DNA from: Flavobacteriales bacterium
GTDB lineage: Bacteria; Bacteroidota; Bacteroidia; Flavobacteriales_F; PHOS-HE28
Length of the DNA stretch: 64,000 nt
Reading direction: 5' to 3'
Assembly: GCA_020852835.1 (NCBI GenBank)
Contig: JADZAC010000026.1
Location: 1-64,000 of the forward strand
Shown here: positions 14,135 to 63,518 of the stretch, piece after piece
Layout: every line of letters begins with the position of its first letter
Numbering within the stretch: position 1 is the first letter of the stretch
The notes under the pieces: model-generated
What the model saw: the letters and a program-made list of their open reading frames with translations, nothing else
Told to the model about the DNA's origin: nothing
Databases searched by the model: none
Made by a program: the position numbers and the translations under genes

Positions 14135-14614
14135 ATGAGGACGATCAAATTGTTTGCAGCCGCCGTACTGATCAGCGCAGCCACCGTGGCAACTGCCCAA
14201 TCGGAGAAAGACGTGAAAGCCTGTGCGGACATGGCCAAGGCCAAAGCCGAGCTGCTCACCAAGGAGCTCTCCTTGAGCACCGAACAAGCCGCCAAGGTCA
14301 ATGACCTGCTGGCCAACAACGAAAAGGAACTGGTGGGCATGCGCGGCCATTGCGAAATGATGGATGCCAAGGCCAAAAAGGCCGATGAATCCACCTATGC
14401 CTCCATCAACGAGCTGCTGGACGAGAAACAGCAGGCCCGGTTCAAAGAGGTGCGTGCTTCGGGCAAGCTGGAATCCTGCGGCAAAGAAGGTGGCAAGGGT
14501 TGCTGCTCCGGCAAGCAGGAACCCAAGGCGGACAAAGGCGCCAAGAGCTGCTGCTCCGGTAAAAAAGATGCCAAGGCCGACGCGGGCACCAAGGATGCCA
14601 GATCCAACCAGTGA
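14135..14614 (+). CDS. Secreted alpha-helical protein with C-terminal CCSGK repeats
   Basis: Signal peptide MRTIKLFAAAVLISAATVATAQ; two CCSGK motifs spaced 16 aa. Confidence 0.75.
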   Translation: MRTIKLFAAAVLISAATVATAQSEKDVKACADMAKAKAELLTKELSLSTEQAAKVNDLLANNEKELVGMRGHCEMMDAKAKKADESTYASINELLDEKQQARFKEVRASGKLESCGKEGGKGCCSGKQEPKADKGAKSCCSGKKDAKADAGTKDARSNQ

Positions 14615-59063: not shown

Positions 59064-61058
59064 ATGAAAAGAACCCTGCTCGCCCTGCCGCTGAGCCTCT
59101 GTGCATGGCATGCACACGCCCAGAACACCTGCGCCAGCGCAGTCCCCGTGGTGCTGGCCCCGTACTACGTTTCCCAGATCAACGGAGAAACGCCCAACCC
59201 GGTCTGTGCCACCGGTGGCAACAACGCCACTGCGGGGGAGTGGTACAAATACACCGCCGTGATGGACACGTCCATCACCGTTACCACGGACCTGGCGCAG
59301 AATGCCGGGCTGGACACCCGGGTCCATATCTACACCGGTACGTGCGGCAGCTTGGTATGCCATGGCGGTGACGACGATTCGGGCGAAGGCTACCTATCCG
59401 TGGCCACCTTCAATGTCGAAACCGGGCAGACCTATTACATCGCCTTCGACAACAACTGGACATCCTCGGGGTTCACCTTCCAAGTGATGATGACCCCGCC
59501 ACCGACGCCCGTTGCCGGTTTCTTGCCGCAGTTCATCACCACCAACAGCTACGGCTATTGCGTGGTGGACATGAACGACGACGGCCTGGATGATGTCGTA
59601 TCGGTGGACCAGAATTCCATCCTGATCAATTACCAGGTAGCGGGCGGCGGTTTTTCCACTTCGGAATACACCACGGCCACCGCGAACAACATGCCCTCGT
59701 GGAGCATCTGCGCCGGCGATCTGGATGCCAACGGATATAACGACCTGGTGTATGCCGGCAGCGGATTGTCCTTCATGATGGCCAACGCCTCCGGCAACGG
59801 CTACTCCGTGATCAACCAGCCCCAGTACATCTTCTGCCAGCGTTCCAACATGGTGGACATCAACAACGACGGGCTGCTCGACGTGTTCAGCTGCCACGAC
59901 GTGGCCCCTAACGTGTACTACATCAACAACGGCAATGGCACATGGACCTGGAACCAAGGCGGACTGGGCAATGAAGCTTACGGCGGCAACTACGGATCCA
60001 TCTGGATCGACCACAACAACGACGGTCTGACCGACCTGTTCATCGCCAAATGCCGCGGTGCCAACATGCCTGAGAGCATCGATGAACTGTGGCAGAACAA
60101 CGGTAACGGCACTTACTCCAATGTGGCCGCACAAGTCACCAATATCGCCGACTTCCACCAGAGCTGGTCCAGCGCTTGGGGCGATTTCGACAACGACGGA
60201 GACCTGGACGTGATGATCGGTGCCAGTTCATTCAGCGGCGGCGGCCACAAGTTGCTGCGCAACGACCTGGGCTCCTTCACCAACATCACCACCGGTTCGG
60301 GCTTCGACCTGTACAACGGCACCAGCATCGAGTTCATCGCACGGGATTTCGACAACGACGGCTATGTGGATGTACTGGGCGGCGGTTCACTGATGAAGAA
60401 CAACGGGGACATGACCTTCAGCCCCATGGTGGTACCCTTTTACAGCGGCCCCACCGGCGACCTGAACAACGACGGATTCGTGGATGTGCAGAACGACAAC
60501 ATCGTGTACCTGAACATCGGCAACGATAACAACTGGCTGAAAGTGGTCACCAAGGGCATTGAAAGCAACGCCAACGGCATCGGGGCACGCATCAAGATCA
60601 CCACCCCCTCGGGCATCCAAGTGCGTGATGTGGTGAGCGGCGACGGATTCAGATACATGAGCTCCCTTACGGCCCACTTCGGTTTAGGGCCCGATACCGC
60701 GATCACCAGCGTGGTAGTGCATTGGCCCTCGGGCATTGTAGACAGCATTTCGGCACCGCCCATCAACGGCACCCTGACCGTGGTGGAGGGAGAATCCAGC
60801 ACCACCACCGGCATCACCCACCTTCCCGGGGCGGAGATCAGCGTGTTCCCTTCGCCGGCAAGCAACACCCTGCATGTGCAGGTGCCCGGCGGCATCAAGG
60901 GCCAATGGGCGTCCATCACCGACCTTGCGGGCAAGGTGGTGGCGCAGCCTTCGCTTTTCCAAGGCACTGTTGATGTGTCAACCCTGGCCAGCGGACTGTA
61001 CCTCTTGCAAGTGGAAACCACAACCGGCATCCGTACCGTACGGTTCACCAAGGAGTAG
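59064..61058 (+). CDS. VCBS/FG-GAP repeat protein with ASPIC/UnbV-like region and T9SS sorting domain
   Basis: Multiple D-x-[DN]-x-DG-x-x-D motifs; NNWLKVVTKGIESNANGIGARIKI; VFPSPASNTLHV...LASGLYLLQVE. Confidence 0.9.
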   Translation: MKRTLLALPLSLCAWHAHAQNTCASAVPVVLAPYYVSQINGETPNPVCATGGNNATAGEWYKYTAVMDTSITVTTDLAQNAGLDTRVHIYTGTCGSLVCHGGDDDSGEGYLSVATFNVETGQTYYIAFDNNWTSSGFTFQVMMTPPPTPVAGFLPQFITTNSYGYCVVDMNDDGLDDVVSVDQNSILINYQVAGGGFSTSEYTTATANNMPSWSICAGDLDANGYNDLVYAGSGLSFMMANASGNGYSVINQPQYIFCQRSNMVDINNDGLLDVFSCHDVAPNVYYINNGNGTWTWNQGGLGNEAYGGNYGSIWIDHNNDGLTDLFIAKCRGANMPESIDELWQNNGNGTYSNVAAQVTNIADFHQSWSSAWGDFDNDGDLDVMIGASSFSGGGHKLLRNDLGSFTNITTGSGFDLYNGTSIEFIARDFDNDGYVDVLGGGSLMKNNGDMTFSPMVVPFYSGPTGDLNNDGFVDVQNDNIVYLNIGNDNNWLKVVTKGIESNANGIGARIKITTPSGIQVRDVVSGDGFRYMSSLTAHFGLGPDTAITSVVVHWPSGIVDSISAPPINGTLTVVEGESSTTTGITHLPGAEISVFPSPASNTLHVQVPGGIKGQWASITDLAGKVVAQPSLFQGTVDVSTLASGLYLLQVETTTGIRTVRFTKE

Positions 61059-61319
61059 CGCCCGCCTGCTGAGCAGCGCGAACGCCCGCGGCAGCCGTAT
61101 CCACTGCAAATTTCGGCACGCCAAGGTACTGGTACCGGGTGCCGCAGGCATGGTTTCCGCCCGAGTTGCCGGTTCCCCAGGCTCCGCGCCTGCGTACCAT
61201 GCCGTATTTCTGCGACAACCCTGCACGGAGCGAACGGGAATTGCTCCCGGCCGTTCACCAGCCGGCCAATTTTGCTGGAATGAGTAGCTTGGCATCCCGT
61301 TTCCAAGTGCTGCCATCCC

Positions 61320-63518
61320 ATGGGTGCCAAAACCAACCTCCTTTCCGCCATCGCCCGTTTTGCCACCCTGCTGGCCAGCCTGCTGCCGGTGCTGCTCCCC
61401 TTTCAGGCCAACGCCCAGGAGAATTGCAGTGCGTATGCCGGAACGATGGACGTGGAATTCGGGCCCCATTGCCTGGTGCAGGGAAACGCCCCGCTCTCGG
61501 GCAACCCTTCCGCTGACGCCGTGGTACCCGATGGTTATGCCAGCGTGTACGTGCTATCGCGCACCAACGGGTTGATCATTGAGCAGATCAGTCCAGCACC
61601 CACTTTCATCGTGAACAGCGTGGACGTGTGGCGCATCCATCGCTTGGTGTACGACCCCGCCGCTCTGGACCTGGCATGGCTGGAACTTGGCAGCTCCAGT
61701 GCGTATGACCTGCAAGCCCTGATCACCCAAGGCGGCGGTGCGGCATGCGGGAGCTTGAGCCTGACCGGTGCCGCCGCAAAAACCATGGAATGCACCGAGC
61801 CGTGCACGGCGTTCGCATCGGGCATGGAGGCCGCACCCGACACGGTGTGCTTGGTGGACGGCCAAGCCACGTTGGCCGCATTGCCCGTGGGATCCAGCAT
61901 GGTACCCGCTGGATTTGAACAACGCTACCTGCTCACCCGCACCAGTGGGTTGATCATTGAACAGATCGCGGCTGCACCGGCATTCACCGTGACCGAAGCG
62001 GATGAGTGGCACATTGTCCACCTGATCTACGATCCCACCACCTTGGACCTGGGCGAGATCATCCCCGGTACAACTACAGCAGCTGACCTGGAGTCCCTGC
62101 TCTTACAAGGTGGCGGGGGCATCTGCGCCAGCATGAACATCACCGGCGCAGCGTTCATCCGGTCAATGGCGTGCAGCACGGCCTGCGAAGCCGATGCGGG
62201 CACGGCAAGCCCGGACCAGCCGGATGAATGCTTGGTGGAAGGCGTCGCGGAACTTCAAGCCCTGCCGGATGGCAATGCCGTTGTTCCCGAGGGCTATCTC
62301 ATGACCTATGTACTGGTTTCCGGAAGTGACCAGGTGGTCATCGACCAAAACACCTTGGGTCAAGCGGCAGTCACCGCTTCGGGCCACTATGGCATCCACC
62401 CCTTGGTGTATGAACCGGCCACCTTCGATCCGGCGGCGATCAGCTTCGGTGTAACCACGCTGGGCGAACTCAACGCACAGTTCCTGCAAGGTGGCGGTGA
62501 CATTTGTGCGAGCCTCGACCTGGCCGGCGCATCGTTCCAGGTCGTGGATTGCTCTCCGTCCTGCGAAGCGGATGCCGGCACCATGCTCAGCAGCGGTCAA
62601 AGCTTCTGCTTGGAACAAGGCATGGCCGTATTGACCGCCAATTCATACGGTGACACGGTGGTGCCCCCGGGTTACGCCATGGGCTACCTGCTTTCCCAGG
62701 GTCCGGGCCTGCTGTTGTTGGAACTGGGCCCAGAGCCACTGTTCGAGGTGACCGCGCCGGGCACCTATCGCATCCATGCCTTTGTGTATGACCCGGCCGC
62801 CTGGAATGACCTGCAGGTGCAATGGGGAACAACCACGGCATATGACCTGAACGAGCTGCTGGTGCAAGGAGGGGGGACCATCTGCGCGGGGCTGGACCTG
62901 CTGGGCACCACACTGGCCGTGGAAAACTGCCCGCCGCCGTGCAACGCCGGCACCGACAGCACCATCACCGTGTGCATGGCGGACCCACCCTTTGAAATGT
63001 TCGACTTGCTCGGAGGCGATCCTTGCCCTGGAGGCATCTGGTCCAACGCGGCCAATCCGCAGGTTAGCGGCATCTTCAACCCGGCCAGTGATGCAGCCGG
63101 GGCATACATGTACACGGTAGCCGACGCGTTCGGCAACTCGTTCAGTGCGGTGCTCATCATCAACGTATTCGAATGCCCGGGCATCGGCAACCACCCATTG
63201 GCCTCGAGAATGCCGGTGGTGGAACCGGCCGAGGAACTGGCAACCGGCATGGATCGCGGGCCGGTACGCCACGGGTTCCATCGCTTGTACTTGTGGCCCA
63301 ACCCGGCCATTGGCACCGTGCATCTGCTGCTGCCTTTCAAGCCGGCCGCATCCACCATGGTGCAATTGACGGATGCCACCGGGCGGGCCGTGAGTGCTTC
63401 AGCCAAACCGGTCGGCAATGAATTGCTTTTGGACGCCGCTGCCCTTGCCCCGGGAATTTGGACCGTTCGCCTTGTTCACGGCAACGACCTCTTTATCGGG
63501 CGATTTGTGCGGCAGTGA
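61320..63518 (+). CDS. Secreted tandem-repeat protein (four ~126-aa repeats) with T9SS sorting domain
   Basis: Signal peptide; four homologous units at 61422, 61803, 62184 and 62562; C-terminal LYLWPNPAIGTVHLLL...LAPGIWTVRLV. Confidence 0.9.
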   Translation: MGAKTNLLSAIARFATLLASLLPVLLPFQANAQENCSAYAGTMDVEFGPHCLVQGNAPLSGNPSADAVVPDGYASVYVLSRTNGLIIEQISPAPTFIVNSVDVWRIHRLVYDPAALDLAWLELGSSSAYDLQALITQGGGAACGSLSLTGAAAKTMECTEPCTAFASGMEAAPDTVCLVDGQATLAALPVGSSMVPAGFEQRYLLTRTSGLIIEQIAAAPAFTVTEADEWHIVHLIYDPTTLDLGEIIPGTTTAADLESLLLQGGGGICASMNITGAAFIRSMACSTACEADAGTASPDQPDECLVEGVAELQALPDGNAVVPEGYLMTYVLVSGSDQVVIDQNTLGQAAVTASGHYGIHPLVYEPATFDPAAISFGVTTLGELNAQFLQGGGDICASLDLAGASFQVVDCSPSCEADAGTMLSSGQSFCLEQGMAVLTANSYGDTVVPPGYAMGYLLSQGPGLLLLELGPEPLFEVTAPGTYRIHAFVYDPAAWNDLQVQWGTTTAYDLNELLVQGGGTICAGLDLLGTTLAVENCPPPCNAGTDSTITVCMADPPFEMFDLLGGDPCPGGIWSNAANPQVSGIFNPASDAAGAYMYTVADAFGNSFSAVLIINVFECPGIGNHPLASRMPVVEPAEELATGMDRGPVRHGFHRLYLWPNPAIGTVHLLLPFKPAASTMVQLTDATGRAVSASAKPVGNELLLDAAALAPGIWTVRLVHGNDLFIGRFVRQ

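Follow-up and report, generated by a model that had tools for sequence, protein, structure and literature searches.

Giant adhesins of the SprB type, described from gliding Bacteroidota, have a type B C-terminal domain and a PorP/SprF shuttle (PMC12618676), and they share T9SS export and modular repeats with the protein reported here, which lies in a window (the whole stretch of DNA that was analysed) of 64,000 nucleotides from a Flavobacteriales genome. However, the window protein has 732 aa, ends in a type A domain and has no PorP/SprF gene alongside, its neighbours being SDR and FG-GAP genes; the SprB-type combination of TIGR04131/CHU_C and an adjacent PorP/SprF gene was found only in giant relatives, and giants of that layout hold our repeat unit singly. 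The cross-linked adhesin of Mobiluncus mulieris is alike in having tandem Ig-like domains with covalent cross-links, but there each isopeptide, ester or disulphide bond is internal to a domain, and a flexible linker separates the domains (PMC10619420), whereas the bonds predicted here cross the unit boundary. Ig_7 (PF19081, CHU_C associated) is also an Ig-like domain of Bacteroidota T9SS proteins and occurs in the same giants, but it is shorter than our unit (~84 aa) and was rejected as a parent family (profile-profile probability 1.3%). GhpA, the grappling hook protein of Aureispira (PDB 9fls) and likewise a Bacteroidota protein, ranked second in Foldseek for a two-unit model (E 3e-5); with a TM of 0.27, 11% identity and no sequence-profile match, we take this as a likeness of fold class only. 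Finally, WP_013769173.1 from Haliscomenobacter hydrossis, a cultured carrier of the unit that comes from activated sludge, contains five tandem units (44% identity over two units) and carries no annotation beyond 'T9SS type A sorting domain-containing protein'. Its array is located on plasmid pHALHY03 (NC_015513.1, 80791-82884) and adjoins an IS630 transposase gene. Set against these systems, we consider it rather probable that the window protein is an exported, type A-sorted surface rod of disulphide-linked Ig-like units, serving as a stalk or adhesive array.

The gene is organised as follows (window coordinates):

61320..63518, + strand: entire gene, coding for a type A cargo of the T9SS (732 aa) that has its four units in tandem (open frame, sorting domain, orthologous syntenic genus locus)
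61320..61415, + strand: signal peptide, aa 1-32, predicted cleavage between ANA and QENC (Q-rule; read by eye from the sequence)
61425..61802, + strand: unit 1, 126 aa, Cys columns 1, 16, 108 and 123 (unit alignment; orthologous to unit 1 of relatives)
61791..61805, + strand: junction 1/2, CTEPC, two junction Cys (unit alignment, junction Cys count)
61803..62183, + strand: unit 2, 127 aa (unit alignment, orthology)
62172..62186, + strand: junction 2/3, CSTAC (unit alignment, junction Cys count)
62184..62561, + strand: unit 3, 126 aa (unit alignment, orthology; within the AlphaFold2 pair model, pLDDT 96.3)
62550..62564, + strand: junction 3/4, CSPSC (unit alignment, junction Cys count)
62562..62939, + strand: unit 4, 126 aa (unit alignment, orthology; single-unit AlphaFold2 model, pLDDT 95.9, pTM 0.89)
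62928..62942, + strand: junction of unit 4 with the next domain, CPPPC (unit alignment)
62940..63194, + strand: different Cys-containing domain, aa 541-625, CNAGTDSTITVC...GGDPCPGG...FEC (own-genome matches)
63291..63512, + strand: T9SS type A C-terminal sorting domain, aa 658-731 (TIGR04183, E 5.6e-6)

All six unit pairs are alike, with 38-45% identity (44-56 identical over 112-126 aligned residues) and local-alignment scores of 196-284, compared with shuffled means of ~30 and a highest shuffle of at most 57 (z 32-50). These alignments bear out the proposal of a first-pass annotation that the 732-aa frame contains four tandem units of ~126 aa; its starts for units 2 to 4 (61803, 62184 and 62562) and their lengths (127, 126 and 126 aa) stand, whereas unit 1, which it had placed at 61422 with 127 aa, begins at the Cys at 61425 and has 126 aa. 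The regularly placed Cys that it had pointed out occupy columns 1, 16, 108 and 123, filled in all four window units, and the array is indeed followed by a different Cys segment and a sorting domain. The latter scores 26.3 bits with TIGR04183 against a cut-off of 23, as befits type A, while Pfam PF18962 stays below its own cut-off (21.4 versus 27). The former had no Pfam match over cut-off; within the same genome, aa ~534-624 match sequences on contigs C11, C5, C65, C30 and C92, and on C11, C5, C65 and C92 dozens of copies of this module occur in giant frames of 1000-2686 aa.

The predicted N-terminal Sec signal peptide follows the Q-rule, a Bacteroidetes signal-peptide cleavage pattern (PMC10653852). 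The same genome encodes the T9SS machinery, namely SprA (2564 bits) and, 1.3 kb apart, a PorU-like C25 peptidase (347 bits) and PorV (392 bits). Signal peptide, TIGR04183 match, T9SS genes and unit alignments thus all support the earlier view of a secreted, T9SS-sorted, modular protein. No consensus match to a Bacteroidetes-type promoter was found upstream of the gene in 61001-61330. Elsewhere in the window, a 48-base short tandem repeat is present at 14487-14593, its unit encoding in one frame a Lys/Cys-rich stretch (AKSCCSGKKEPKAD).

The unit had at first gone unrecognised, and this holds: searches of Pfam, NCBIfam and the PDB by sequence, using the whole protein, 48 diverse units singly and profiles, returned no match. 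Among Ig-like Pfam families (Ig_7, Big, HYR, PKD and fn3) the 48 units gave single chance hits only, the best with an E of 0.014, and the whole-protein Pfam hits to DUF7490, Ig_SIBA-E and GO-like_E_set were discarded as sums of weak repeats in which no stretch was significant singly. Viral relatives were found neither in phage records nor, as close folds, in a viral library. Neither of the outcomes that the first-pass annotation had named as contrary to its proposal, a Pfam hit to the unit and a lack of significant similarity between units, was observed: the unit had no Pfam match, and the units are significantly similar.

With a profile of the four units we retrieved 43 loci from named genomes; among 98 relatives, 40 had matches, and these 40 include 37 of the 45 genomes of the genus. 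Altogether, over 300 units belong to the family; they occur, from 1 to 19 per protein, in T9SS-type proteins of Flavobacteriales, Saprospiraceae and other Bacteroidota. The unit is present in 5 of 393 sampled genomes of the phylum, in 32 of 400 sampled Flavobacteriaceae genomes (8%, with a family label that we infer) and in a quarter (56 of 223) of the genomes of a large-genome family, f53. Judged by these alignments and profiles, the unit is a real, unnamed domain family.

AlphaFold2, run on alignments of the window and locus sequences, gave a confident model of a single unit (pLDDT 95.9, pTM 0.89), as the first-pass annotation had suggested trying. The order of its strands fits a beta-sandwich of the Ig-like kind into which a helical segment is inserted at 83-106, and this is the fold that we predict for the unit. 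Foldseek placed it nearest to Ig, FN3 and PKD domains, but no PDB entry came close, the lowest E being 0.012 and no TM exceeding 0.47. The two-unit model (pLDDT 96.3, pTM 0.71, the relative orientation being less certain) obtained lower E-values with targets in which two such domains are in tandem, at low TM.

Across the genus, the four-unit gene has orthologues in a syntenic position. The gene order is kept as transporter, cytochrome-like protein, FG-GAP/ASPIC T9SS protein, four-unit gene, SDR, T9SS protein and Sua5-like protein in most near relatives among loci L021-L027, L029 and L030, apart from minor deviations and places where a contig ends; the FG-GAP/ASPIC name derives from Pfam, and the other neighbour names were read from the sequences without family searches. 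The upstream neighbour (59064-61058) is an FG-GAP/ASPIC-UnbV T9SS type A protein, and its adjacency is kept in most near relatives. Unit 1 is 48-71% identical to unit 1 of the loci just named and units pair position by position across species (L026 has one extra unit 2-like copy), which indicates that the window array is old and stable. Unlike the window array, those of L033, L042, L043 and L046 contain units that are up to 98-99% identical, which looks like a sign of recent duplication, expansion or homogenisation.

Such positional identity across species would be needless for a mere spacer, and it therefore bears on the alternative that survives best, namely that the array is inert and function resides wholly in the trailing domain (aa 541-625). 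The abundance of the trailing module in giant proteins of the same genome would fit this explanation, as would the location of the array between other domains in many relatives. However, L044, L050 and L057 are made up of an array and a sorting domain with little else, L044 and L057 with as many as 18-19 units, and in proteins of this build the function must reside in the array itself. We regard an inert spacer as possible, if somewhat doubtful.

At the other extreme, the unit of f53 occurs once per protein of thousands of residues. Two of these giants, inspected in full, have a type B sorting domain in addition to SdrD_B, DUF11 and Ig_7. In 10 of 14 loci the single-unit giant is followed directly on its 3' side by a PorP/SprF gene, and a giant type B protein with PorP/SprF downstream is the layout of type B substrates and their shuttle (PMC12618676). 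Examples of PorP/SprF directly after single-unit type B giants are L103 (17678-18652), L104 (4262-5245) and L138-L148. Both the giants and the array-only proteins would be compatible with a surface role that is structural, in the manner of a stalk, and possibly adhesive, and the single units in giants beside PorP/SprF lend a possible adhesive role indirect support.

The most informative feature of the family is the distribution of Cys at the junctions between units, which we counted at 277 distinct junctions, a junction being taken to run from column 119 in unit n through to column 5 in unit n+1. Cys108 is near-invariant (350 of 356 units), while Cys1, Cys16 and Cys123 are variable. Whenever the preceding unit has Cys16, the junction contains either no Cys (n=51) or two (n=135), without exception in 186 cases, and when the preceding unit lacks Cys16 there is exactly one (90 of 91), the sole exception being located beside a masked stretch. 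The rule is obeyed at 276 of 277 junctions, compared with a mean of 155 and a maximum of 180 in shuffles, a count to which the second genome set contributes independent data, yet no blind test of the counting scheme. Such coupled presence of bonding Cys is what a disulphide-cross-linked array calls for.

Furthermore, the coupling is directional: where neighbours differ in Cys16, 36 of 37 junctions follow the preceding unit and 1 the following unit. More than one Cys state occurs in 13 of 72 arrays, for instance in alternating Winogradskyella arrays, and a unit tree built with the Cys columns masked requires at least 12 changes of Cys16, 24 of junction count and 25 of joint state; because of these repeated changes, the rule is not one inherited accident. 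Whole proteins are split equally between even and odd Cys totals (14 each), as at random, which makes evenness a property of the junctions. As evidence on unpaired chain ends or polymerisation, the same whole-protein parity was set aside as uninformative.

The simplest reading of these counts is a predicted disulphide between Cys108 and Cys16, or between Cys108 and the first Cys of the next unit if Cys16 is gone. At four-Cys junctions, the type found in the window, two pairings are both possible, Cys16-Cys108 together with a bond between the two junction Cys, or Cys108 to Cys1 of the next unit together with Cys16-Cys123.

Alternatively, disulphides might form within units only (Cys1-Cys123 and Cys16-Cys108), leaving the array a flexible string of beads. 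Cys1 and Cys123 of one unit are indeed correlated (Fisher p 4e-16, in a count where overlapping units share one Cys as both Cys123 and Cys1). However, bonds confined to units give no reason why Cys16 of unit n predicts the Cys count of the n/n+1 boundary nearly without fail and has no predictive value for that of n-1/n, and tandem units with Cys1 and Cys108 that lack Cys16 and Cys123 recur (L118, L128); on these grounds we think this arrangement unlikely. That the four junction Cys instead bind a metal ion or cluster, with no disulphides, is considerably less probable still: the four Cys of two neighbouring units do come together at 135 of 277 junctions, but half of the junctions hold just two of the four (Cys16 and Cys108, or Cys108 and one junction Cys), the number is always even, which is unexpected for a metal site, and the protein is extracellular. 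Least credible of all is an enzymatic unit, such as a carbohydrate-active module, to which the weak Foldseek listing of the beta-sandwich region of a GH158 laminarinase (TM about 0.3) and the 97% conservation of His72 might point, but no enzyme family was matched in family searches and the conserved residues are for the most part Gly, Pro, Cys and aliphatic ones that make up a structural motif.

To return to the rod of disulphide-linked units, the 732-aa protein would be exported by Sec and then transferred across the outer membrane by the T9SS through its type A domain, and would end up, retained on the cell surface or shed, as a short rod made of four Ig-like beta-sandwich units. Cys108 would bond Cys16 of its own unit if present, and the junction to the next unit would then have two Cys, forming a second bond, or none; with Cys16 missing, Cys108 would bond the single Cys at the start of the next unit. 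As the window junctions are all of the four-Cys type, each boundary between successive domains would be held by two bonds, and the outcome may be a stalk or adhesive array that resists both mechanical force and proteolysis.

Several observations count against parts of this model. A type A domain can also end in release from the cell, which weighs against surface retention, and no ligand or binding site is evident in the 732-aa sequence, which weighs against adhesion. DsbB, VKOR and Thioredoxin_4 were searched for in the window's own genome and none matched, a result that speaks against disulphides. The same genome encodes Cys-rich exported proteins despite this. In addition, first units keep Cys1 even with no preceding unit, as in the window, where it follows directly after the signal peptide (61425), and in the proposed scheme this is an unpaired residue; it is a possible site for links between molecules.

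More tentatively, one could go further and imagine a new Ig-like family whose copies are stapled by a switchable disulphide, made either within the unit or to the next one, so that evolution would be able to adjust rod stiffness at each junction separately and the unpaired end Cys could link one molecule to the next, head to tail, to build fibres.

A covalently hardened modular surface protein is a known kind of thing, and the junction Cys are a strong signature, read from sequence, of disulphide stapling between neighbouring units. As far as our searches show, neither the Ig-like unit domain nor the switchable junction Cys rule is described in the libraries and literature covered. Surface proteins of Bacteroidota are often named by their sorting domain alone, as is the Haliscomenobacter relative, and we believe that a named domain model for the unit would annotate proteins in 37 of the 45 genomes of the genus, in 8% of the sampled Flavobacteriaceae and in a quarter of another family. 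Should the coupling stem from real bonds, such stapling would be to Gram-negative bacteria what the hardening of adhesins by isopeptide cross-links is to Gram-positive ones, and it would be readable directly from sequence.
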